The notes under the pieces are model-generated. The model saw nothing but the letters and a program-made list of their open reading frames with translations, made no database searches and was not told the origin of the DNA. A program made the position numbers and the translations under genes. A DNA stretch of 64,000 nt, taken from contig OX463787.1 in the NCBI GenBank assembly GCA_949825025.1, forward strand, positions 18,695,482 to 18,759,481, in the 5' to 3' direction. This stretch comes from Siphlonurus alternatus. Taxonomy: Eukaryota; Arthropoda; Insecta; Ephemeroptera; Siphlonuridae. This document shows, piece by piece, positions 585 to 51,613 of the stretch; the first letter of the stretch is position 1, and each line of letters opens with the position of its first letter.

Positions 585-3500
585 GTGAGTACATTATTTG
601 AGAATTATCAATATATAATTTGTGCTTGTGTCTTGATGCTATATTACAATATTACAAAAAAATGCATATAACTGAAATTTCGTAATATCTTACCCTTTCT
701 TAAGGGTAAGGTAAATGGGTCAGCTTACCCATTACTAAAAGATCCCACTCATGAAAATTATGAAAAAAATAATTTTTCTAAATAAATAAATAAATAAATA
801 AATGTTCTTCTGCATCCCCTAGATATCAGTGGCTAAAATGTCAGATATTCTAATTCAAGCTAGTTTTTTATTTATGAATTGTTATAGTTTAATAATTTAA
901 CATGGAAAACTTAAAATTCCATGTTCAATTAGTCAACTTTAAAAATTCATAACTCAAAAACTAGCTCGAATATGTGTATCTGATAATTTAGATATTGATA
1001 GGAAATGTAGAGGAGAATATTTTATTCTTTTTTTTTTTTTTTTTCATAATTTTAATGTGTGGAAATTTTTTAGCATTGGGTTAGCAATTCCGTATTACCT
1101 TAACATTTAAATTCATCTCTTTCTGCAAATTATAACAACAAATCGATTATATTGTTTATTCTCAATAATCCACTTGTTCCGTAATACGAAATATTCAGAT
1201 TAGAGAAATTCTTTAATGCCATACATATGGATTGTTTTCACTTGTTTTTTTAGCAGGTGCTGTCCAAAATTGTACTACAGGTCAGACCATGTGTCAAGCC
1301 CTAACTGAGCTCAATTGCTGTGAGTTTGGTTTGGAAACCTGGGTAGATTCAGATGATTGTGAACGATGCCGATGCAATGATCCCTGCCGCAAACACTCGT
1401 GCCCTGAAGGAACCATTTGTGCCGTTGGACGACAACAGTCCATTGAAGTGAATCGTTTCCAATATGTATGCAGACTAGGTAGGATATAATTTTACTTTCT
1501 TATACATGTTTCCTTTGTTATATGAAGTATAAAAATACATTTGAAAATAATTTATAATAATAACAGAAAACACAGATTTTATGTTACAAATATCTGCTTT
1601 TTCCCATTTTGAACAAGACAGTAATATTTTATAAATATGTGTTCTAAAATTACGTAAACCACAAGACGTACATGATGTGGTGTTACATTATTTTACGTTA
1701 AGTCATGTTTGTATAATATGAGCGTATTTCATTGTTTATAAATAGGCGTTGTATATTACAAAACAGATCGTGACGCTGTGGTACACGCCAAACATTTTTC
1801 ATCGGATATTAGTTTAATCACACTCAAACGCTACCATGGAGAGGCGTCGCTTTAAGAAAAAAGATAAGACTTTTCACACATTGACGTCACAAAAGGGACT
1901 TGTAATATATATTTTTTTTAAAATACTTCCTGATCTCTAAAAAATATGAAAAAAATCAGGGTACCCTCTATTCATTCCAGGAATTAAAAAGTTGAGGTCT
2001 ATAATCTATTGATGTCTTCTCTCATAAAATGCAGCAAATCCTGAATGATATTTAAATGTTTCATCAAACTCAAAACCAAGAAAGAATTAACCACTCCATT
2101 TTGGTACAGAAATACAAAATCTTGGCTAAATTTTAGGTCGAGTCTGCGAACAACAAATGCAGTCACATGTGAATAGAACCCTACAACAACGATCTGTGGA
2201 AGCAAAGAAAAAAAATATACAATAAAATACATGCTATTTTGTATTTGTAGTGTTAAAGCCTGCGCTGTGTCCTTTACTAACGCAATGGCTATGCTGTCTG
2301 TCAGCATTAGCCTCTTCTTACTAGCCGTACTATCCCTTTTGTTTCAGAGTCATGCATGCTGCCCAAAGAGCAAGGTCCTGGCCACAATTTCACGATCAAA
2401 TGGTTTTACGACACGGAGTATGGTGACTGCGTTCGTTTCTGGTACGGAGGAATTGATGGCAACGCTAACCACTACAATTCCCAGGAAGAATGCAAACAGA
2501 CCTGTATTGAACCAACGGGCAGGGGCAAGTTCTACATTTCCTTTAAATTCACTTATTCACTTGGTTATTTTTTGTTAATATTTTAACTTTCTACAATTAA
2601 AATTTTTTTGCAATGTAATTTTTTAGGACACTAATGTGTAAGAATAAAATATTATGACCAAAAGTTGAAGTGTTTAGTTTTTATGAAAATGTTTTTCATG
2701 TATACTACACGTTGTGTTTATGCAGTTGCATGCACCTCCAGTGAACTGACGTGTGGTGACGGCAAGTGTGTAGACTTTCGCCGGCGCTGTGATGGCCACA
2801 GAGACTGTCTCGATGGACTTGATGAGCAAGGTTGTTCAAGTAAGTGTTGTCTCCTGTATTTATTGAAATAAATTACAATTTTCTGTTTTGGAAGTTATGG
2901 AATACTAGCTTGTAATGTAGCAAAATGTCATGAAAATAAAAAAAATTGCTTTTTTTATTGTTGCTAGAAGTCTCAAGGTGTTTTCACAAGTACTTTTATT
3001 TATTTATTATAATTATTCTGAAATCAGACTACAGGTTAGGTGTTCCGATTATAAAGAATACAATAAAAAAATACACACGTACAAAAATTATTATATAACA
3101 AAACTCTTGGTAACATATAATACATTATATTTATATTACATATTTAAACATGCATTTGTATTATTTACATATCCTTGCAATTTCTTGCAAAGGTGCTGGA
3201 AAATGTCAATCTTGTATATACAGTTCATTGCAAAATGATTGAACTCTGGAAATAAAAGAATATATTATCAATATCATTTCTTGGGTTTGGTATGTAGAAC
3301 ATATGAGATGATCTGTTTTGTCTCGCTGGTACATTTAGACTGAGCTCAGCTAGAATTTCATTACAGTCTAAATTTCCATCGATTAACTTCTTAAGAAAAA
3401 AGATATCGCTCATATCACGTCTGTATCTAAGTGTTGTTATTGCATATTTGTTGCACAATTCAGGATAATTTTGTTTATTACAGTTGATCTGCTCTTTTTG

Positions 3501-6500
3501 ACACATTATACTTTTAATAAATTTTCTTTAAATTTTTTCCAGTGTATCTTGTTTTGTTTTATAGGCAGCTGGAGACCACACAGGGCTTGCGTAGTCGTGA
3601 ATTGGTAGAATAAGTGTCATGTACAGAATTTTTGACGTGTCCGTCTTGAAATTTCACCCAACCCTTTAAATAAACCCCCACATTCTGTTACATTTATTGC
3701 GGATATTGTTTAGATAAACATTAAAAGTTAATTTTGAATCAAATGTTACACTCAAGTCTTTTACCTCCTCAACCCGTTGCAATCCTGTACCGTCAATTTT
3801 GTAATTTTTATTAATTTTGATTTTTTTACCAATAAAAGTGATTGATACAAATTTCTGCAAGTTAAAAGACATTTTTCATTTTGTACAACATACAAAGCAT
3901 CCTATTTAAAACAGACTGAAATTTTTTGCAGTCTTCTATATAGTGTGAAAATACGATGAAAAAGCTTCATATCATCGGCATACATTAGACACTTTATATA
4001 TTGAAATAAAGAAAGCAGATCCGAAATATATAAATTGAACAGGAGAGGCCCCAGAAGTGATCCTTGAGGTACTCCGGAAGTGACGTAATCAAGTGAAACG
4101 ACATACCGTCAATCACTACTCTTTGTGTCCTAAATGTTTATTAGCTTTGTAAAATTTTGAGTATCTGCGATAATATACCGAGGCTTTCCAATTTAACTAA
4201 TAAGAGATTGATTGATTGATTGGTTTGTATTTTGGGGCAATTGACACATGTTGGTCATGTATGCCCCTAAATAAGAGATTATATGGGACCTTATCAAATG
4301 CTTAATTAAAATCGGTATAAACTGTGTCAACTTGGCAACGATTTTTAAATCCTGCTGCAAGATAAGAATGTAAGTTAATAAGGCAAGACGTGGTTGATTT
4401 TTTAGGGGTAAAACCGTACTGCTCTGGGGGTATGCTGCTCATCTGTGAAAGTAAAGAGAGTCTTTTTGCCCGGGAAGAAAAAAAAATTGTGTTTCTCATT
4501 TCCTTATATGCTAAAAAATAAGCACTATAATTTACAATGTGTATGACATCTAATAAAATCGTAAATTTGCAAATTATAGCGTTTCAGGATTTTTTTTTTA
4601 ACCCGAAATAAAGTTTAATTAACCTTTAAAAATCCTGAATTTGACACTTTTTGTCTATATTTGAAATAAAAAATGATAACATTATGTTTTAAAAGAAAAA
4701 AACTCAGATAATTTGGACGATAATTGCGTCAAAACGCTCGAACTTCCGCTGAGCAGTCCATGCTACACACTCGTAACTCACCTTATCTCACGTACTGTAT
4801 CTCAGCCGAAAATTATTAGATAATGCTCAAAATTGAAAAATGAGTTACTGGAAATGACAGTAAAGAAAATTGACTATAAAAATTCATATAAACGGGTTCG
4901 GTTGACTGTTTACGTGTTTTTCCGTGTTTGCAAATTTTGCATATTGGGGAACAACACATCCATTTAGAGTACACATCATATCTCTTGTAAAAATTAAAAT
5001 CGATTAACATCCTTTTATTGTTAACTTTATGAAAGTTACGATGTTTAAAATACAACATTTGAAGAAAAAAATACAAGTTTTTGAGTAATTATGATTTGAA
5101 ATTTATTGATCTGCACCCAAAAAACATAATATTGCAATATTCTCACTATCACTGCTTGTAAAAAAAAACTAATAAATATTTCTAAATTATTATTAGTAAT
5201 TTGTAATCATTGAGCTCTATACAAGGCTAGAGGGCTAATCAGCTGTTTTAGGCGCGCACGGCGTCTGGGAGGAAAGTGGGTGGTGATCGGTGCTATCGAA
5301 TGCCTGGTTGACCAACCTAAGAAAGTTTCCTTATAAAATAAATATTAAAAGTTACACTGCAGTTGGCAATTCTGAGGAGAATACGTTGGAATGTGTGACG
5401 AAAGCGCAATCTCCCACCCACTTCCTCCCGCCGGACCGTGCGCACAGTTTAACATTGAGAAGTATAGGGCATTATCCCTCTAGCCTTGTATAGAGCTCAA
5501 TGTTTGTAATTTAATAAATATAGGTAATTTTGTTTAAGCTTACTATACGTGTTGAATAATTGTATGTAACTCATTGTCAGTTCCAACCGATAGGGCTACA
5601 TTTAGGGCCTTGGTTGGACTGTATTTTTACACAATTTAATAATAAAAAAATTAAAAAAAAAAGGCCTCTCCATATCTTTAATGTATGAACTATGAATTAA
5701 AATACAATTTACCACACCTTCCTTAAAATTTGCATTAAACAAGTGAATATTTGCAATATTTTCTTGTCAAAAGTTTATATCATGCCAACTGGTGAATAAT
5801 TTTTTAGTATATTTAGTATATTTTTCGGTCAATTTATAGAGTTTTTGGTTCATTTTAATTACATAGGCACCTTAAAAGTGCATGTAAACAAATTCATTCC
5901 AAAACTGCAGCGTGGGATGCATATTGACATTTTAACAGAAATTTGTGCAAAAAAAGTACTAACATGGTAACACGTATGACGCCGTGTAGCCTAAAATATA
6001 GATTTTGAGATAAAATCGTTCTGGAAGTTCCCTTTTCACATACAGAGCATAAAAGCAAAATGTCAAGTCACTCAACCAAACCTTAAATTTTTTTATTTAA
6101 CATTAGTGAAATAAATTGGGATTTAACTTAATAAAGAGTGTCAAAAAATAACTACTGACTGTGAGCTTATTGAAAGTGCACAAAACTCCCCTTAAGTACT
6201 TTTTTATGGATGTGTGCCTTTATATAATACAAAGTCCAGCATTGAGAGCAGTATATATGCTGCAAATGTGAAGATTTTATTAAGTTATTTTATTTCTTCT
6301 TTCTTCTAGAGGACAAAGCATTTTAATGGAAACTTCACATCGTATTATGTATGTACATTTACTTGAAAATCTATCAGCATTTTATTTCAGATATCATTTT
6401 CTCCAATTCTGTTACTATTATAAGAAAATCTGTCATTTTTTCTAATTCGCAGCTTGTATGCTAATTATACTCGACTCATATTGGCTGCACTAAATTACTA

Positions 6501-39316: not shown

Positions 39317-39850
39317 GTTTTGAAAATGTTAAGTTATGCCAGACCTGTTTGATGGATTTGTTTACTTTAGCATCGCTGCCGTTTTTTTTTTTTTTTCTGT
39401 TCTTAAATTTGATTAATTTGAATTATAATATTTGCTCTATATTTTATGTGTGTATTTTTGGCAGAAAGTATTGAAATACATCGAAAATAAAGTGTCAAGA
39501 AAAGATGATAATCGACATGACGATAATAAACTTTATAGTTTTATCAGAAAAAATTAGATCAGTATATTCACGGTTATTGTATACATACCATGTATATGAA
39601 ATTGAATTTTCTATGCTAAATGTGTGTGTTTTTTTAATCATATAAAAATATATTTCATATATATCAATGTCAATGTCATATAATCACTGAACTATATACT
39701 ATGGAAAGCTAACGCATGCTCTTTTTCCCATCTCGCAGTGAAGCCAGAAAAAGTTTCTCCTTCCCCCACCACTGCCGAAAACACATATTCACTTAGTGGG
39801 AAGAAATGCGGGAGAAGTTTAAAGCGTCAAACGGCAGCTATACATTAGAA
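39317..39850. other. Upstream region of lectin 3
   Basis: Contains the presumed promoter and 5' untranslated sequence of lectin 3. No TATA box or untranslated exon could be fixed. Otherwise AT-rich and unremarkable up to the pentanucleotide repeat. Confidence 0.4.
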
Positions 39851-39854
39851 GCTA

Positions 39855-40235
39855 TATATTATATTATATTATATTATATTATATTATATTATATTATATT
39901 ATATTATATTATATTATATTATATTATATTATATTATATTATATTATATTATATTATATTATATTATATTATATTATATTATATTATATTATATTATATT
40001 ATATTATATTATATTATATTACATTACATTACATTACATTACATTACATTACATTACATTACATTACATTACATTACATTACATTACATTACATTATATT
40101 ATATTATATTATATAATATTATATTATATTATATTATATTATATTATATTATATTATATTATATTATATTATATTATATTATATTATATTATATTATATT
40201 ATATTATATTATATTATATTTTATTATATTATGTA
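39855..40235. repeat. Pentanucleotide microsatellite, blocks of ATATT / ACATT / ATATT
   Basis: About 33 ATATT units, then about 15 ACATT units (40019-40095), then about 26 more ATATT units. The clean switch of one base for a whole block resembles the TTATG/TTATA array at 7017-7346. Confidence 0.97.
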
Positions 40236-40499
40236 AAATATATATATACATATATGGTGCAGGTTATTCTTGATTCCTTAATGAACTATATTATTTACTT
40301 TTTTTTTATTGTTCATTTAATGAAAATGGAAACTATAAAAAAAATTGATAATAAATTATTATTATTTCAGACTGATGGAGGTATTATGAAAAGACAGAAG
40401 CAGTTTATAAATTGAATTCAAATTTGCAGTTTTATTAAGAAAACATGTAACAAAAGTAAAAACATGAGAAATGCACAAATTTTTAACTACACAATTATA

Positions 40500-41203: not shown

Positions 41204-42628
41204 TCACCCGCTCTTTCCAAAGTCAAAGAGACGGATACGAGTGTATGCTAAACAGCATTCCTTAATGAGACGAACCAAATGATTTGAACCTAATTCGGTG
41301 TCGAACATATGATCCGCTAGGTCAGGAAAAAGTCTGTCACAAATAGGTCCCATATTTTCTAAAACATATGCATTTATTTTTTCACGTATATTTGCAATGT
41401 GAAAAATTGAATCATTGTTGGTACTTAGCAAGTGTCTAATATATTTCTCCGTAGAAATACAAACATCTACTACGCCATTGCTAGGAACTTGCAGGCCACC
41501 TTTGCTTTTTTGCTTGATTAGAGAGAGACGTGAAATTTGCCTATTCATACAATCAGTACCAACACTAGTGGTGTTGGTATCATCATAATTAGCATTTAAC
41601 GCAACTGAGCAAGTTTCACATTTAACTCTTTTCCTAACCATTAATACAACTTTACCTGCAATATATGCAATGACGCTCTCAGCAAAGATTGTAAGAGATT
41701 GAGACTCTACAAGATATTGCAAACAATCATCTTCTATAGGCTCTACTGTGTCTTCTTCTTCTTTTTCAAAGCCATACTTTCGTACTGTTGATAAATCAGA
41801 GGAATCAAAATTTAAATCCGACTTTTTTTTCTTACATGTTGCAAATAGTATTGTTGTGCTGTCTTGTGCAATGCAGTTGCCACGCCCACCTTTTATTTCA
41901 TTCCTTATTAATAAACGTTTAAAGGCAGATTTAAATCCACCACAAGTAGGGTTGGTATTCCACCCACCTCTGGCTCTAATTGCACCAAAAAACAGCTCAA
42001 TATGATCTTGGCTCAGTTTATATGTTAGCAAATATTTTAACCATGGTTTATCTCCAGTGCATAGACTGTCGTATAAATCACGTACACTCAACATACAAAC
42101 GTAAAGGCCTATGAACCCAGTTTTGAGTCGAGTCATGTGCAATGGTTTTTTCTCAAAAAATTTTTTTTTCTTGGGCCCAAATTCTTTAGGTTTTGTAGTC
42201 AGGCCCTGTATATAATCTAATGTGTCTTGGAAAAATGGTCGCCATTCAGACACATTTCGCTGACTTAATGGGGCTTTGTACCCCTTCCCCATTGGATTAC
42301 GAGAATTTAAATGATCAAAAACTCGGTTCATGGTGCGAATAAATTCTACAGTTGGACCACACCCACTAAATTGGGGATAATGATAAGTTTTGTCACAGAG
42401 TACGAGCGAATCTGCAACGCTGTCGCTCAGAGTTTGTACGCATATATTGACTTTCATAATTTGATTGCGAAAATTAATATGGCGTTTCCCTACTTTATTG
42501 CCGGCTCGTAATCTTTCTTTCTCTTGCAATTCATGTAATGCAACAATATATTTCCATTCAATTTTTTCTCCCTTATTATTATGAATGACTTTTTCAGCTT
42601 CCCAAATATTTCGCACGAGTTTAATCAT
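41204..42628 (-). pseudogene. P-like transposase, C-terminal open frame (474 codons)
   Basis: From the first Met after the stop. It begins M-I-K-L-V-R-N-I-W-E, carries L-E-L/F-F-G-A-I-R-A-R-G-G-W-N-T-N-P-T, and K-C-E-T-C near the end. The same frame continues upstream through 26 codons (V-N-V-I-L-D-P-C-H) to the TAA, so it is not a separate gene. Confidence 0.85.
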
Positions 42629-42706
42629 GTGACAGGGATCGAGTATAACATTAACTCTTTTGTTGCATTCTTCATGAGGATGGGGGAATGAATATATTGG
42701 ATCGGG

Positions 42707-44176
42707 TTATTTTAGTTTTGCTCCCAATTCATCACAAAAGGCAAAATTTATATGAGGGCCATCGCAAGTTAGTGATACAACGTCAAGACCTATTGAAAAC
42801 AGTCTAATAAACGCTTCGCGTACAAGGTTTGCTTTTACATTTGCCGGAAGGTGGTCTATAAAAAAATATGCAATGGGGAGTTTCCAATTTGATTCTAATG
42901 AAACGACCATAAACACTAGAACCTCAGTAGCCGGGCCTCGATGAAGACCATCCGCATCTATCCCTGTACCGAGATCTACAAGACCTGTAAAATCTTCTCC
43001 GTTAAATCTTAAATCTTTTTTAATACTAACTTCATCGAGGACAAAAGCTAAAAGAGGAGGCGGCAAGCCTTTCAATTTATGCTCGTTTACTTTTTCTTCT
43101 AATGTTCTAAATGATTCCCCGCAGAAGCCTGGATCCGCATTGACCTCACTATACCATCCCCGTATTGTTGATGGATCTGGTAAAGCTAGGTCAAATGTTT
43201 TTCTAACGAAATTATATGCAGCAGGAGAGTGATAATGTAAAGTAAGAGCAAAAGCCCTAAGCTCAGGAGAAAATTGAGTCCGTGTGTTGGTGCTGCTCTC
43301 TTTATTTTTTAAACATCGAGTAAATAAATGTAAAGGAGAGCCAGTAAATACTCTATCCATTAAATTTAAAAGCTCATTATTAACTAACTTTTCTTTTCTT
43401 AAATCATCAAGCACGTCCTTCATGCTCGCAACTTTACGTCTCAATCTAGATATTGTTTGTCGTTGTATTTTTATAACTTTTTTTTTCTTCTTGCACTCCT
43501 CTTCTTTCCTAAATAGTTTTCGCTTTAATGTACGAGGAGTAACCACATAATTGTGGTCTTTTTTAACATATTTGATATTACCTCGTGCTTTATAAAAGGA
43601 TGACGTTGGTGGTGTTAAACGTTCGAGCGGAGAAGGCCGGGAGCTCGTCGAGCGCGTGGTGCGTGGCGTGTCGACCGCGGCCGTCGAGAGTGGTGGTGAC
43701 GAGTCCCTGATACGCTGCTGGTGCCGGGAGTCCGAGGTGCGCGGCGTGTCGACCGCGGCCGTCGAGAGTGGTGGTGACGAGTCCCCGATATGCGGCTGGT
43801 GCCGATGGCATGATGACCGGCAGGTCTGGGCCTCGTTCAATGATGTTGATGGCTGTGAAAGTGTTACGGCACATACAGTTTGTGGAGATGGTAGAGATCT
43901 TGGTGAACGAGCATTGTTGAGAATATTTTTTGTTTGCGGCACTGCTGCTGGACTTTGTGGAGAACACTGCTGATTCCTGCTTGGAGTTGATCGCAATGCG
44001 TAGCGAGGTGACGGTGTTGGAGACCTGCTTTCTTCCTCATGTCTTGTATATTTTCGTCCTCTGCAGTGCGGTCGACGTGGTGTGTCACAATACTCAGGGG
44101 GAGCAGGGGGGTTTCCGTCGTCATTGCATTTGATGATTCTAATAGATTTGGGAGTGGGTATATGTTTCCGTTTCTT
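42707..44176 (-). pseudogene. P-like transposase, N-terminal open frame of main exon
   Basis: Open from 44176. It contains T-P-R-R-P-H-C-R-G-R-K, a 26-residue tandem duplication (R-D-S-S-P-P-L-S-T-A-A-V-D-T-P-R-T twice, 43665-43820), a leucine-zipper-like helix (Q-T-I-S-R-L-R-R-K-V onward) and the first catalytic-core strand F-V-L-D-E-V-S-I-K-K (about 43030). It ends at TAA 42709-42707, where the reading resumes in the same frame. Confidence 0.85.
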
Positions 44177-44369
44177 TCAATTTCTGCAATCAAAGAAAAA
44201 AACTTTGCATTAGTTTCACTTTTTATTTATAAAAATTACAATTTCAAATGTTTATTTCAATTTCATTTTCTCTTGTATTAAGTTATTTTTTATTCACCCA
44301 AGTCAAACAAAGAAAAAAATATAATATATATGCCACCAACACCACATATATATATATAATATATATATA

Positions 44370-44535
44370 TACATAATATAATATAATATAATATAATATA
44401 ATATAATATAATATAATATAATATAATATAATATAATATAATATAATATAATATAATATAATATAATATAATATAATATAATATAATATAATATAATATA
44501 ATATAATATAATATAATATAATGTAATATAATATA
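44370..44535. repeat. (ATATA/TATTA)n pentanucleotide microsatellite in P-like intron
   Basis: About 31 AATAT units within the intron between the THAP exon and the main exon of the P-like element. It is the third array of this pentamer in the window. Confidence 0.95.
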
Positions 44536-44569
44536 TATGCTAACACCAACGTCGTGTCGGTGTCTCGTC

Positions 44570-44990
44570 ACTAATCACTACTACTCGGGCCCCGGCACGC
44601 AACACCAACTAAATGTTGAGAAGACCGTCTTAATTCTTAATGTATAAAAAAAAAAATCAGAGTGAAGGATATGCCTATATTATTCATGTTAAAATTAAAA
44701 CTTTGGGGGTGGAGATCGCGGGGCATGGCCCGCCAGCTTCGCCCCACCCCCTGAACCAAAATTTTGCGCAGTATCCGCTCCCGATACCATGCAGCAGCGT
44801 GCCAGGGACTCGTCACCACCACCCTTGCCGACCCCGGTCGACATGACATGCACCACAAGCTCCCAACATCCAAGGCTTACATTGGACTCGTGTGTGTCTT
44901 ATAGTGCATTATTTCACATAACGCGTGTACTATAATAATTATGTATACTGTATTATTTGTATGATTTCTTTTTCAGTTTTAAAATTAAAA
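44570..44990. other. Intron of the P-like element, GC-richer patch
   Basis: Contains a GC-rich stretch at 44705-44850 (GGTGGAGATCGCGGGGC..GACCCCGGTCGAC) unlike its surroundings. No convincing exon reading was found. It may hold a missed exon linking the THAP finger to the main exon. Confidence 0.4.
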
Positions 44991-45194
44991 TATATAAACT
45001 CACCATGCCATGTGTTTGTATGTTGGTACAGCATTTTTTTTCAATCTGCGTCGAACTTTGCTCTCATTAAAACACGTGTCCTGGAAATGATCGGAGCAAA
45101 TGTAATCATATTTGCTTGGTTGTCGATTCTCCCAGCCGAGGAAAGACAGCCATTTCTTCAGTAAATCCTGGTTATCCTGGTCAGTAGTTGGCAA

Positions 45195-45220
45195 TAATAA
45201 TAATAATAATAATAATAATT
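45195..45220. repeat. (TAA)n tail of the LINE
   Basis: Nine TAA/AAT units on the plus strand, that is (TTA)n at the 3' end of the minus-strand LINE, directly abutting the THAP exon. Confidence 0.9.
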
Positions 45221-45361
45221 TTATTTCAATAAACGGTTGTACAAAACAACATATATCACGTTATAATATTCTTAATTGTAAACACATTATACATAAAACC
45301 ATAATATATAATATTATACATATTTTGACAATAAAAAATACAATAAAATATTTCACAATCA

Positions 45362-48300
45362 CTATGAGAGACAATTTTCCGACAGTTTATTAGCAAAAAA
45401 CTCCTTCAATGAATAAAACTCCTTTTTAATTAAAACATATTTTAATTTTGCTTTAAAAAAAGCATCACTGTCAATATTCCTTATACATGCTGGAAGAAAA
45501 TCATAAATCTTTGCTGACTGATATAATGGACTCTTTTCCAACAGAGCGGATTTATGATTTACTATTACAGTTTTTGATTTATTTCTTGTCTCATAGGCAT
45601 GTTTACTGTGATCGTATAATTCTGGATTATGTCTTCTAAATAATGCACTACATAAAATATATATACATGGTAAAGTGAGCATATTATTAGCTTTAAAATG
45701 TGAAACGCATGAATCTCTTTTTTTGAATTTTAACATTGTCCTCAGTGCTCTCTTTTGTGATATAAACAGCCTATTCAAAGACTGGTTATTGGCTCCATAA
45801 AAAATAATACCATATGATAAATATGAATAAACATATGCATAATAAATTGAGAATAGCGACTCCGTAGATACATGATCCCTAATTGAGACAATACAAAATT
45901 TGCTGAATTAATTTTTTTTACAATGGATTCAATATGAGTTTGCCAATTTAAACATTCATGGATATTAAATCCTAAAAATTTTATTTGTTCTGCCCTATTA
46001 ATTGAGTGGTTATTTAATTTTAATAAATAACTGTACTCTTGGATATTCCTATGTGAATGGAATTGTACAAATGCAGTTTTTTTACTATTTAAAACTAATT
46101 TATTAATTTTGCACCATTGTTTCATGTGATTTAAGGTGTTTTTTATTTTTCCAAGGAGCTCTATCTCTGTATCTGCAGTAACTATAGCCGTCGTATCGTC
46201 AGCATACTTTATCAATTCAGCATCTATTAAATAATTAGCTAGATCATTTGTGCCAACAGCAAATAAACTTGGAGAAATTTTTCCTCCCTGTGGCACCCCT
46301 ATATTTAGGGGTAGTATATAAGTTTTTACTGCTAATTTTTGGCAACCTTTTAATTGATTAATTTCAACATATTGCTGACGATCAGACAGATGTGAATTAA
46401 TTAATTTCAAACTATTATCACTACTTCCAATATTTTGAAGTTTATTTATTATAATATCTTTGTTTAATGTATCGAAAGCTTTGGACAGGTCGAAAAAAAT
46501 TGCCACACAAAATTTTTTACTATCAATAGCGGTATATACTTTGCTTAAAAGATCAAAAGCCGCTGTAGTTGTGGATTTATTTTTAACAAACCCATGCTCA
46601 CATTTTGGAACGAGTTTATTTTCCGATTGATAATCGGTTAATTGTTCGTTCAGTATACTTTCAAAAATTTTAGAAAAAACTGAGGGTTTAGAAATACCTC
46701 TATAATTACTGATTAATTTCTTATCACCCTCTTTCAAAAATGGAAGTACTAGTGATAATTTTAAAATTGCTGGAAAAACTCCATCTTTGATGGAGCTGTT
46801 AATGAGAGACATTAAAGGTACTGCTATTAAAGACTTTATTACAGTATATGGTATATCATCCGGGCCAGCTGCATTCTTATTTGGCAAAGCATTAATATGT
46901 TTTAATAATTTAAATTCATCAATTGTTTTAAACTCAAAATTCAGTTTCGTTTTTGTATTATTAAAATTTTGTCTATGTAGATCTTTTACAGCACTGTCAA
47001 TTGGAAAATTTTCTATAATTATTTGTTCTATTGTTTTTACAAAATAGTTATTATACATATTACTGATTGATATTGGACAAGTGATAATATTTCCATCAAT
47101 TGCTATTTCAGATATTATATTACTTTGTTTATGTTTGGATATATTGCATTGTTTTTTTATAATTTCCCAACTAGTTTTAACTTTATTTTCAGATTTTTTA
47201 ATTTTTAAATCATTTTCTGTCATTATGGCTGCATTAATTTTTTTTTTATGTATTTTTATTTTAGCTTTATATTCTGGCATTAATTCTGAATTTACATATT
47301 TTGCTTCTATAAACAATTCTTTCAAATAATTTCCTTCCATTACTAGATTAGGATTATTAACAAGCCAGTCTGGTTTCTTTACAGTATTATTAATAATCTT
47401 ATTTATTTTAGGAAATGCTTCATTGAAATGGAATAAAAATATTTCTATAAACAATTCCCATTTCCTCTCAATACATACCGTAGAGTCTAACAATTCATTC
47501 CAATCTTCTCTTATTAATAAACGTAACAATAATTCATAATTTTCTTTACTGAAATTCCGAGTTGTAAACGACACATTCTGTATACTTTGAATTGAAATGT
47601 CCGACTTTACTATGGCAACAATCGTATATTTATGATCTGACAAACCAGTATCTTTACTAAAATATACAATTTTAGAATCTGTATCATTAACCATTATGTG
47701 ATCAATAAGAGTCTCGGTTTTACTTGTTACTCTGGTAGGTTTCTTATTTACAATATGCAGCCCAAACGATTGCAATATATCAAGATAGAATTTTACAGTA
47801 TTGCATGGTCTTAAAATATTAATATTAATATCTCCCCCCCAAAATTATTGTATCATTCCTTTTAAACAGATTACTAATTCTTACACACATATTTTCAAAA
47901 CATTCCAAAAATTTAACTATATTTTTTTCTTTATCTTGAAAAGTCCCCTTTTTAAAATATGTTGGGGATCTATACAATGAAGCAAAAAATATCGAATGGC
48001 CATCATTACATTTTAACTTGGCAATACAACACTCGAAACAAGCTTCAATTGAATCTATTTTAATTTGTTGGAATTTAAATTTATTTTTAGCTAGTATTGC
48101 AAATCCTCCCTTTACTTGTGATGTGCGACAGTAGGAAGTCACAATTTTAAAATTTTTAAACTTTACTGTATCTAATTCTTCCGATTTAAGGCCATGTTCA
48201 CATATAATAATAATATCACAATTTTCTGATTCAAGGATATCTTCAAATAATTTTAATTTTGATTTCAGGCCTGGAATGTTTAATTGTAAAACTGAAATTT
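45362..48300 (-). pseudogene. LINE ORF2: AP-endonuclease and reverse transcriptase, with two frameshifts
   Basis: Endonuclease: L-N-I-P-G-L-K-S-K (about 48275), C-E-H-G-L (about 48190), S-Y-C-R-T and I-L-G-G (47826-48142), then T-L-I-D-H-I-M-V-N and L-S-D-H-K-Y (about 47630). Reverse transcriptase: N-Y-R-G-I-S-K-P-S-V-F-S-K-I-F-E, F-D-L-S-K-A-F-D (about 46480), G-V-P-Q-G-G-K-I-S-P-S-L-F (about 46290), Y-A-D-D-T (about 46200). C-terminus: F-I-S-Q-K-R-A-L-R (45362-45778). Frame breaks: a seven-G run at about 47832-47838 turns GGDIN into GGRY-stop, and another indel lies near 45885-45900. The PQGG and YRGI variants of the usual PQGS and YRPI are unusual. Confidence 0.85.
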
Positions 48301-48315
48301 CATTATTATTATTTT

Positions 48316-49968
48316 TTAAGGTTTTTTTGGGGGGTTTTTGTGACTGGGAAAATAATTACCAACTTGTGTTGCTACTTTAGGTCGAAGATTATGTGTTGAT
48401 ATTGGACTTTTTGATTCAGAACTAGAAGTTGAGTCATTTTTCTCATACAAATTATCCTCGGCTAAATCATCAGCACAAAAATCTTCACATTCATCTGAAT
48501 TGTTATCCCCAGCCTTAATTGCAGCATTGTACCTATCAATCTCGATTAAGTTTTTCTCAAAATTTAATGCACTTGCTATTTCACCATTATTTGGAGAAAA
48601 TAATTGCGGGTTGGGACCACTTGAACCAAATTTATTAAGATTATTATGTATTTGTTGAAATTGGGGTTCACTGGGGGAAAACTGAGGCTGGCTTAAGTTT
48701 TCAACACCCCTTGATGGAGTGTGCGTGGGGCTCATTGCCACACCATTGCAGGGAGCAGATGAGGATGGAGAGGGTGTTCGCTCTAATGCTGTCGTATTAG
48801 AGGCCTGTGGCTTAGGTGTACGACGGTATAACGATCGCCGTGCACCTCTGCCCCGCCGGGCACCCGTCGTCTTACTCCCTCGCCCTAGCTGCTCTGGTGT
48901 TTTTTGATCATGTTGTGGTGGCATGAAATCTGCGTCCCGCTTCTCCTCCTCCTCTCCCTTCTCACGCCCTTTGTTCACTTGAACGCGGGGTGTGAAAGAC
49001 CTTGGAGAGGGAATGTTGGTAGAGAGAGGTGTATGACGTTTTGAATTTTTTCCAAAGTTTAATGGGACAGGCGGTAGAGGTGGGAATTTTGTCATACTGG
49101 TAATTGAAGTTGGATTTGCGGGAGCGGACTTTTTTTTTGGTGGCAGGCTATAAACATCAATTGTAAATTCCTGGTCTGCAAAAACCGTGTGAAGCATATT
49201 GCTAACTGTGGACCAGCTCACTTGATCCCTGCCTGCTGCTATCTTTGGCATTGCCACTCTCTTCACACCAAGAATTTGACACAGCTCTTTTAATTCAGTA
49301 AGACACTTCATAATGTCATTAAGAAATGGTAATTCAAATGATGATTTTTTTGTTACCATATTGAAAATATAGCCATTATCATAAACTGGGAGCACTGCAA
49401 TTTCTCCTACATTTTTGTTCATTTTCAGCAATGTGTCAATGTTCCCAAAACGTTCTCTAACTTGCTTAGCAAAACCTTTCTTCATTAAGAAGTCTCTTCC
49501 CACACAATGAACAACTGGAATATTTTTTGAAATTTTAAATATGTCTCCTGTGATATAATTAATTTTAAAGTGATCAAGTTGTAAATTTGACTTCTCACCC
49601 TCTGGAACATTGTTCAATATGTCATACCTGTTGTTGGTGGAAATGTAAAATACCTTTTTCGTTTCACGCGGGCGCCCACCGTGATGAACTGACCGCCACC
49701 CGTCGTCTTGATGTGTCAGGTTGTCACCAGGTGTCACCGACGAACGAGCAGAGTTCAAATTGTAAATATGTGGTCGCCGATCAGCGCCGCACCAAGCTCT
49801 GGGATACTCAGGTACTCGAAGCGTGGAGAGAATTGAGTCACGTGAAGGTCGAGGATAGCATGATGCAGTAGTAGGAGGAGGTAATTCAAAATTGTGCATT
49901 GTCATTTTTACTATGATTACATTGACTTTTTCCACTGAGAACAAAGTTATTAACCCGATCCATACCAT
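48316..49968 (-). CDS. LINE ORF1 protein with a TARG1/OARD1-like macrodomain
   Basis: The open frame is 550 codons; the true protein probably starts further upstream in another frame (see 49886-50234), and the in-frame M-T-M-H at residue 22 is one alternative. Residues about 100-122 read K-K-V-F-Y-I-S-T-N-N-R-Y-D-I-L. Residues about 134-276 form a macrodomain: I-N-Y-I-T-G-D-I-F, V-V-H-C-V-G-R-D-F, M-K-K-G-F-A, R-F-G, G-E-I-A-V-L, F-N-M-V-T-K-K, V-A-M-P-K-I-A-A-G-R-D-Q-V-S-W and D-V-Y-S-L. Lys207 (TKK) and Asp248 (GRD) align with the catalytic Lys84 and Asp125 of human TARG1. The rest is Pro/Ser-rich, with an Arg-rich patch (about 365-390) and an acidic C-terminus. No zinc knuckle is seen. Proposed activity: ADP-ribose binding or de-ADP-ribosylation. 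Confidence 0.82.
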   Translation of the reverse strand: MVWIGLITLFSVEKVNVIIVKMTMHNFELPPPTTASCYPRPSRDSILSTLRVPEYPRAWCGADRRPHIYNLNSARSSVTPGDNLTHQDDGWRSVHHGGRPRETKKVFYISTNNRYDILNNVPEGEKSNLQLDHFKINYITGDIFKISKNIPVVHCVGRDFLMKKGFAKQVRERFGNIDTLLKMNKNVGEIAVLPVYDNGYIFNMVTKKSSFELPFLNDIMKCLTELKELCQILGVKRVAMPKIAAGRDQVSWSTVSNMLHTVFADQEFTIDVYSLPPKKKSAPANPTSITSMTKFPPLPPVPLNFGKNSKRHTPLSTNIPSPRSFTPRVQVNKGREKGEEEEKRDADFMPPQHDQKTPEQLGRGSKTTGARRGRGARRSLYRRTPKPQASNTTALERTPSPSSSAPCNGVAMSPTHTPSRGVENLSQPQFSPSEPQFQQIHNNLNKFGSSGPNPQLFSPNNGEIASALNFEKNLIEIDRYNAAIKAGDNNSDECEDFCADDLAEDNLYEKNDSTSSSESKSPISTHNLRPKVATQVGNYFPSHKNPPKKP

Positions 49969-50234
49969 TCACTTGATTTTGCTTAGCCCACACAATATTT
50001 TTGGCTAAAAGTTCATCACATTTAGTATTTATTATGTCACTTTTTTATCAATACCTATTACTTTGTCCCACATATTGTTTATATCGTGTGCCAGTGCCGT
50101 GAAAGAGGTTTAAATACTTGCATCACTTCATTTTTTATGTGCATATTTTGCAAATTAACATTTGTGTTTTGACTTAATGTTTGCTGCTGTAATGACTGAG
50201 AAGAAAAAGGTGGTGGCATATTTATTACCTGCAT
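49886..50234 (-). pseudogene. Frameshifted N-terminal part of LINE ORF1 (coiled-coil-like)
   Basis: From ATG 50234: M-Q-V-I-N-M-P-P-P-F then Q-rich sequence. The reading then passes through two more frames as L-A-H-D-I-N-N-M-W-D-K-V-I-G-I-D and D-E-L-L-A-K-N-I-V-W-A-K-Q-N-Q-V-N-G-M-D-R-V, ending at TGA 49888-49886. The heptad-like, Asp/Lys/Asn-rich style matches the coiled coil that opens many LINE ORF1 proteins. It overlaps the upstream end of the 550-codon frame. Confidence 0.55.
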
Positions 50235-50499
50235 TTTTAACTTATCAGATAAAATATGTCTGAAAACTTACTGTCCGTTGTCAACACGATCACAAAATTT
50301 CACTATACAGCTCAAGGTGAGCAGTGAAAATAAATTATATTTAGATTTTTATATTGGCACTATATTCACAGATAAATATTACATATTTTAGGACTTATCA
50401 CTTCAATATTATCACCTAAATTTGTAGAAAAACAACGGACACAAAAACTTCAATACATAGCACTACAGCAGCGCCACTCACCTCCTAAAAAAATATAAT

Positions 50500-51613
50500 A
50501 TAATATAATAACGCTACATTAACGCATTATATATTTTTAATAAAAAAATAAAGAAAAAACAATCACATTTTATAAAATACATGCAATGATGTAATCAAAA
50601 TAAAAAATAATCGATTATAATAATAAAGTATAATTTATTTATTTATCATGTGGCTGTACATAATACAACATAGAGACAAAAAACAAATTAAAATACCTTA
50701 AAAATTAGACATGAAACAGTATTAAATACACTTAGAATTAATAAAAATTAAAACAGACATAAAATAAACAACTAATTTTATTTATTTATTTTAAATGTCT
50801 TTATGTTAATTGCTAGAAATTAACGGCGTGCACATAGAACTTATATAACTATCATATAGTACGGAGAAAAGTTAAAAAAATAGTAAATATAAAAATAAGA
50901 AATCATTCAATAATTAATAAAAATATTTAATAAATATATAATAATTATGATTTTCATTAGTAAGTAAATAATTGAACAAGAAATGTTTTTAGCAGAATTT
51001 TATTATAAAGGTGGATGACTGATAACAAAAAAGTTTATGATAATATATTATTATATATGAGAACAAAAAATGAATTATTAAATATGGAAGTTAAAGAAAA
51101 GTCACTTTAGCTCTCTTTTATTGAAAAAAGTAAATGTAAGTTTGTTATTTTTTGTCGTATTAACCTTGAACCTTAGTTTTATTACTTTGTCCTATTTATA
51201 GTTCAGTACGAGCTATATCCTGCTACCTCGAATTTCCTTCCCTGTCCGATCCCTTCCTATTATACAGTTAAGTTGTTGCCTGTTTGAACTTGCGTATAAT
51301 CAAAACATTGCAATGTAAGTGCACGTTAATTAAGATAAATATTAATTATTAGCATTGAGGATTATTTTATTTGTGTAAAAATTAAAATTGTTATCTATTT
51401 TTCTCTTTTACACAGGGCTTTTTAGTTTATATATACGATGATGTAATACAATTTGAAATGAACAAACTTTACCTGCGTATTCCATGCATTCAAAACAGCA
51501 TTGTAAATAAGTAAATATTCACAATGTTATACAAAATTGTTGTTTATAACATAAGTTTAAAGTAAAAATTGGGCATTTTAAACAATAATTTTATGTATTA
51601 AAAAATTACTTAC
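50500..51613 (-). other. First intron of the P-like element
   Basis: Donor GTAAGT at 51613-51608 and acceptor TTTTTTTAG near 50485 (both minus strand). AT-rich, no other features seen. Confidence 0.55.

Follow-up and report, generated by a model that had tools for sequence, protein, structure and literature searches.

Does the first open reading frame (ORF1) of a LINE encode an eraser of ADP-ribose, and is that a trait of the element or an accident of one copy? We asked this of a 64,000-nucleotide stretch of Siphlonurus alternatus DNA (the window), in which a first-pass annotation had placed a macrodomain of the TARG1/OARD1 type, with both catalytic residues, inside the ORF1 of a non-LTR retrotransposon. 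A phmmer search of the PDB with the window domain returned five TARG1/C6orf130/OARD1 sequences, which we take to be human, at E-values up to 2.2e-24 (best value in Table 1), followed by two other macrodomains at 1.9e-4 and 1.3e-3. These values bear out the TARG1 type and rule out a MacroD-type identity, the TARG1 sequences being ahead by about 20 orders of magnitude. The domain of a relative, L013 (other loci are given L numbers), likewise matches TARG1 at 1.2e-16 and the next macrodomain at 0.0087. A chance match is excluded by the E-value together with the at least 150 scored matches in the genome. The annotation had also proposed a check against the Pfam Macro profile (PF01661), whose outcome is divided: the excised domain lies above the cut-off of 22 bits (23.4 bits, E 6.2e-05), whereas the whole ORF1, for which Macro is the sole Pfam family listed, lies below it (20.4 bits). 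A single-sequence AlphaFold2 model was too poor for fold comparison (pLDDT 40.8).

The domain is homologous to TARG1 (OARD1, C6orf130; ALC1-like class) and shares with it the motifs GDxF, HCxxxD, G-[IF]-A and P[KR]IxxGxD. In the alignment TKK stands opposite TKK and GRDQVSW opposite GLDRLQW, so that Lys207 and Asp248 of the ORF1 frame occupy the positions of TARG1 Lys84 and Asp125; the frame and both codons had been located exactly. TARG1 is, however, a stand-alone enzyme of about 150 aa, while the LINE version lies inside a long ORF1, between low-complexity arms on both sides, and is present in many copies.

Table 1 Features of the LINE copy in the window
Feature	Position	Strand	Basis or remark
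Short frame with ATG upstream of ORF1, possibly its separated start	50079..50234	(-)	By eye; suggested reading
ORF1 open frame, 550 aa plus stop	48316..49968	(-)	Holds the macrodomain; intact N-terminal part absent in this copy
TARG1-like macrodomain, 144 aa, ORF1 residues 134-277	49138..49569	(-)	PDB phmmer, TARG1 E 1e-24
Lys207 codon	49348..49350	(-)	Aligned with TARG1 Lys84
Asp248 codon	49225..49227	(-)	Aligned with TARG1 Asp125
A AAA AAA heptamer in the ORF1 frame, directly ahead of the ORF1 stop	48322..48328	(-)	ORF2 in the -1 frame
N-terminal endonuclease (APE) region of ORF2, frame interrupted	47623..48300	(-)	Sequence and weak Pfam match
ORF2 open frame with reverse transcriptase	45775..47775	(-)	RVT_1 E 1.5e-28, about 45961-46719
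3' tail of ATT repeats, end of element	45193..45219	(-)	By eye

That the protein is a LINE ORF1, as had been claimed, is confirmed by the reverse transcriptase (RT) match in the ORF2 downstream. The window ORF2 also matches Exo_endo_phos_2, below the cut-off (E 0.0056) and over 47623-47775 only, and no direct-repeat family longer than 34 nt was seen among the 20 listed of 40 over 44900-51600. With an endonuclease followed by RT, LTRs not seen, an ATT tail and multiple copies, the element is an APE-type non-LTR retrotransposon. The copy in the window is dead: its ORF2 and the stretch upstream of the ORF1 frame are interrupted. Directly downstream of its tail, positions 41204-45150 hold two P-element/THAP9-like transposase frames (TNP-like and Tnp_P_element domains) with a THAP-like stretch recognized by eye, and the LINE may sit in or beside a P-element/THAP9-like DNA transposon. 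Further along, positions 39806-40273 hold a long frame of [13 protein letters not shown] repeats, which is of low complexity and probably no gene.

We searched the window's own genome (G000, 455.7 Mb) for the domain. The Pfam Macro model finds 25 Macro places there. With the window domain as query, the best 150 of 310 candidates were scored, at E-values from 4e-117 to 1e-21; 143 of these 150 are without an internal stop, and 138 lie, by hand count, in frames of 411-828 aa. A second search with a query from a distant family, again limited to the best 150 (of 305 candidates), hit mostly the same places and added 73 new ones that were carried over. The union of both searches comprises at least 223 TARG1-like places, a few host-like ones included. 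Among the matches listed, close relatives with the domain show 95, 86, 85, 74 and 68% identity; the domain is thus a family trait and not a single-copy capture, the outcome that the first-pass annotation had set against it, and the copy number rules a single capture out. Within four families, ORF1 copies differ at just 3-27 of 1428-2265 bases, indicating recent activity.

The association with ORF2 holds well beyond the window. Specifically, 10 kb were fetched around 20 of the 25 Pfam Macro places, of which several are copies of a single family, and a match to the window ORF2 lies downstream on the same strand at 19 of the 20, the exception being L020; at L017 the match covers only the part ahead of RT. 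At further places picked to represent different families, RT follows on the same strand in 14 of 15, L044 being without it, which brings the overall count of downstream ORF2 matches to 33 of the 35 other loci checked. In the reverse direction, among the best 67 of 4768 RT candidates found with the window ORF2, at least 34 have a macrodomain match on the same strand, no more than 6 kb upstream. The remaining 33 RT places may be truncated or have a macrodomain match beyond the matches listed; one of them, L092, shows no domain over the 2.3 kb ahead of its RT match.

We compared the proteins of these relatives with the known kinds of LINE ORF1. In all five other ORF1s scanned (L015, L024, L027, L021 and L013), Macro alone exceeds its Pfam cut-off; no RRM, CCHC, PHD or esterase domain does so. 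RVT_1 is present in the ORF2s of L015, L024, L021 and L013 (4/4) and an endonuclease family is above cut-off in three of the four, with none listed for L024. A simple heptad test for coiled coils gave a score that was reached by 0, 9, 10 and 17 of 200 shuffles in L024, L021, L013 and L027, respectively. In L028 and L015 it was reached by 80 and 120, and the window yielded no scoring stretch. LINE ORF1s have been sorted into types I-V, with RRM plus CCHC, coiled coil-RRM-CTD, PHD, esterase, and an unclassified remainder (PMC4120745). The ORF1s described here resemble these in being the first ORF of a two-ORF APE-type LINE, variable and swapped between lineages, and the esterase of type IV is a precedent for an ORF1 with an enzyme fold. 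In contrast to types I-IV, they contain a macrodomain in place of RRM, CCHC, PHD or esterase, by the Pfam comparison of five out of five. The word macro is absent from the main text of PMC4120745, on Jockey-superfamily ORF1 types, and the open-literature matches listed, which leave most subscription papers, preprints and Repbase notes outside, include no earlier description of a macrodomain in a LINE ORF1. The annotators' remark that they knew of no described LINE clade with such a domain therefore provisionally stands, within the same literature.

ORF1 and ORF2 overlap by 17-100 bases in the elements read, and ORF2 lies in the -1 frame in the window, L015, L024, L027, L021, L013, L055, L054 and L039; L048 has it in a different frame. 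The overlaps of 5/5 families contain in-frame slippery heptamers, with eight seen against about one expected from the elements' own ORF1 bodies. When L055, L039, the window, L048 and L054 are added to these five, 8/10 have them, L048 and L054 being without. The heptamer AAATTTT, in the ORF1 frame with ORF2 at -1, recurs in the overlaps of L015, L024, L021, L013, L055 and L039. No ATG precedes the endonuclease core in L015 and L024. Because of the -1 frame, the heptamers in the overlap and the missing ATG in these two elements, programmed -1 frameshifting in the macrodomain LINEs is plausible.

We examined which residues are kept. The domain alignment has 59 rows, from which six were left out of the count, namely the host-like L003, L046 and L060, both domains of L020, and L029 from a viral contig; the 53 rows that remain come from ORF1-type frames, for some of which RT was checked, and were reduced to 32 clusters at 80% identity with one member each. 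Lys84 and Asp125 are each present in 52 of 53 rows and in 31 of 32 clusters, while the commonest residue of the median column reaches 47% over the 32 clusters. Only 8 of 144 columns are at least 97% conserved over the 53 rows, these two among them, and the other Lys and Asp columns are conserved at 8-81% and 25-81%. The position aligned with TARG1 Asp20, which we take, by analogy with other macrodomains, to be the adenine contact, has D in 19 of the 32 clusters, N in 11 and C in two. That the catalytic pair is nearly invariant while the Asp20 position varies argues for retained catalysis, and would favour an enzyme over a mere binder.

The domain as a whole is also better kept than its surroundings. 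Among L015, L027 and L028 its identity is 79-84%, compared with 53-56% for the N part and 44-45% for the C part of ORF1; its dN is 0.10-0.12 and its dS at least 1.4 (undefined in one of three pairs), and its synonymous divergence is not below that of the arms. Extended to seven elements and 21 pairs, in which synonymous sites are mostly saturated, the domain is the best kept part in 19; the exceptions are the window and L024, where it ties with the C part, and the window and L013, where it falls below the N part. These comparisons indicate that the macrodomain is under purifying selection, which is compatible with catalysis and binding alike. For most of the families examined, the stop-free frames and the conserved residues rule out a dead, decaying passenger domain.

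L095 has Thr at the Lys84 position. The L010-L013 family, four near-identical 755 aa ORF1s of which L011 and L013 are followed by an open ORF2 of 1042 aa, has Asn at position 125 and has lost the HC motif (HCxxxD). The HC motif is likewise missing from its relatives L093 and L094, which keep Asp125. As the L010-L013 family has amplified despite losing both Asp125 and the motif, hydrolysis appears dispensable there; the pattern resembles a loss of catalysis and weakens a universal enzymatic role, and binding alone may be sufficient in this one lineage.

We compared RT and domain trees of 18 elements, leaving out L028, L034 and L056 (short RT matches), L009, and also L044, which is without RT. 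RT groups L027 with L055 (99/98), L048 with L054 (99/99), and the window with L015 and L024 (98/96), whereas the domain groups L048 with L015 and L027 (100/100), L054 with L047 and L063 (100/99), and the window with L039 (100/98). Imposing the clades of one tree on the data of the other was rejected in six of six AU tests, with p from 6e-60 to 4.5e-4, values that are optimistic because the conflicting clades were named after the trees had been seen; L053, L013 and L039 are on long branches. An assembly artefact behind the conflict is ruled out for L048, L039, L054 and L055 by reading the intervening stretches, through which the frames are continuous, ORF2 being split in L054 and L055. The conflict between the trees thus indicates that the macrodomain has been exchanged between LINE lineages. 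Exchange of ORF1 among Jockey-superfamily LINEs has already been proposed (PMC4120745); the process is known and the macrodomain cargo appears new. The host-like rows (L003, L046, L060 and L020) fall inside the unresolved backbone of the domain tree, and for this reason the tree speaks neither for one capture nor for several.

What the domain does for the element can be approached through its relatives. TARG1 is reported to cleave ester-linked ADP-ribose from Asp/Glu and from the ends of nucleic acids (PMC7050489, PMC6582358), acting through Lys84 and residue 125 (PMC7050489), the latter a glutamate according to PMC7050489 and an aspartate in the PDB sequence. Human TARG1 is described as binding single-stranded RNA irrespective of sequence and at least partly outside the ADP-ribose pocket, with poly(ADP-ribose) (PAR) competing for TARG1 and displacing the RNA (PMC5928194). 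In mammals, PARP1 and PARP2 reportedly act at L1 integration sites, their loss lowers retrotransposition, and PARP1 binds L1 ORF2p (review PMC8535693); SIRT6 silences L1 by mono-ADP-ribosylating KAP1 (PMC4695847), and loss of TARG1 sensitises cells to topoisomerase II and PARP inhibitors (PMC10933786).

From the mammalian TARG1, PARP1/PARP2 and SIRT6 data, we infer a role for the ORF1 protein (ORF1p) as an RNA-binding eraser. The macrodomain LINEs would represent a new kind of ORF1, probably an ADP-ribosylhydrolase that may double as an RNA-binding core. The explanation that we favour, by a modest degree, is a large, recently active set of APE-type LINEs whose ORF1p would use the Lys-Asp chemistry of TARG1 and also bind RNA. 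In such a scheme, ORF1p would coat the LINE RNA through the macrodomain, in place of the RRM or esterase domains of other ORF1s, and would remove ADP-ribose from Asp/Glu side chains or nucleic-acid ends. After ORF2p nicks the target, host PARPs would ADP-ribosylate the nick and the incoming particle; PAR would displace the RNA from the macrodomain, which would erase the ADP-ribose, limiting repair or silencing signals so that reverse transcription could proceed. A -1 frameshift at the slippery overlap would yield some ORF1-ORF2 fusion, with the hydrolase attached to the endonuclease-RT. The broader proposal is more tentative, and we place it slightly short of an even chance: these LINEs would make up a new class with an enzymatic ORF1 and would need an ADP-ribosylhydrolase of their own, partly fused to ORF2 by frameshifting, to erase PARP marks at the nick or on the particle, and the module would be portable between lineages against, or in tuning, host ADP-ribosylation.

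The strongest competing explanation, which the first-pass annotation had not raised and which we nevertheless consider unlikely, is that the macrodomain is the RNA- or nucleic-acid-binding core of ORF1p, with ADP-ribose chemistry secondary or unused. Since no other Pfam match is above cut-off in the five other ORF1s, nucleic-acid binding would come from the macrodomain or from the low-complexity arms, and the RNA binding of human TARG1 outside, or not only through, the pocket (PMC5928194) is in keeping with such a core, as is the amplification of the Asn family. However, Lys84 and Asp125 would not be needed for RNA binding outside the pocket, and their presence in nearly every cluster, far above the median column, argues against it.

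Somewhat less probable still is a reader, which would bind PAR or ADP-ribose and thereby locate nicks marked by PARPs or bring in repair factors, with hydrolysis unneeded. The fold is that of a binder, and the glycines at the positions of TARG1 Gly43 and Gly123 are kept in 52/53 and 49/53 rows. PARPs gather at L1 integration sites and aid insertion (PMC8535693), and a preprint on chikungunya virus in Aedes mosquitoes reports ADP-ribose binding, rather than hydrolysis, as critical (PMC12632316), which favours a reader role in insects. A pure reader, on the other hand, need not retain both Lys84 and Asp125, and the Asp20-aligned position is D in just 19 of 32 clusters. The chance is negligible that a host OARD1-like gene or pseudogene happens to lie next to a LINE, or that the domain was captured once by accident. 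Short stand-alone TARG1-like frames do occur in the genome (L003, L046 and L060), but this reading is refuted by macrodomain ORF1 frames that overlap ORF2 in multiple copies and in families of several RT lineages, and by the macrodomain matches upstream of at least half of the best RT places.

An eraser in ORF1p, the reading that we prefer, has parallels in other genetic conflicts. RNA virus macrodomains are described as countering host ADP-ribosylation (PMC7232374), and the viral macrodomains named in PMC6582358 are MACROD-like. The LINE domain resembles them as a predicted ADP-ribose eraser in a mobile or viral genome and differs in being TARG1-like and in a retrotransposon. DarG has a TARG1-like macrodomain in a setting of genetic conflict (PMC7050489); it and the viral-contig TARG1-like proteins share the macrodomain type and the conflict setting with the LINE domain, but DarG is an antitoxin and the viral-contig proteins are viral genes, and a link to reverse transcription was not seen there. 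No retrotransposon-encoded ADP-ribose eraser is among the open-literature matches listed. With PARPs acting at LINE insertions (PMC8535693) and mono-ADP-ribosylation silencing L1 in mammals (PMC4695847), the macrodomain LINEs may bring their own eraser of a host damage and defence signal. Naturally occurring families, dozens of them, that retain or lack the catalytic pair form a comparison set for asking if retrotransposition is limited or guided by ADP-ribosylation. A second ORF1 with an enzyme fold, next to the one with the esterase, would also inform the question of what purpose ORF1 serves.

Several TARG1-like frames lie outside the ORF1/ORF2 arrangement or vary it. A 201 kb viral contig (IMGVR_UViG_3300029305_004606), judged from its frames to be probably a large phage, has a gene for a TARG1-like macrodomain of 144 aa that stands alone and keeps both catalytic residues (L029, 2998-3432); it was the one contig with a relative in the search of viral contigs, and a search of genome contigs with its protein found no relative. 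L020 (G000:C3:10608236-10618235, frame 2050-3753) encodes 568 aa, comprising two TARG1-like domains in tandem and a tail made of SQYxS-type repeats, with no ORF2 match within 10 kb. In its first domain Arg stands at the Lys84 position and Asn at the Asp125 position; its second keeps both residues, and L020 is probably a host paralogue. The L044/L089/L074 group (G000:C6:2458600-2462702) has a 560 aa open frame with a TARG1-like domain; at L074 there is no RT match and no other same-strand frame of at least 120 aa in the 3.5 kb downstream, and the group is either an ORF1-only element or a host gene. In a high-copy family, L091 (G000:C1:6047000-6049500), about nine tandem TPGEESGLAxVNDG-like repeats, recognized by eye, follow the ORF1 macrodomain.
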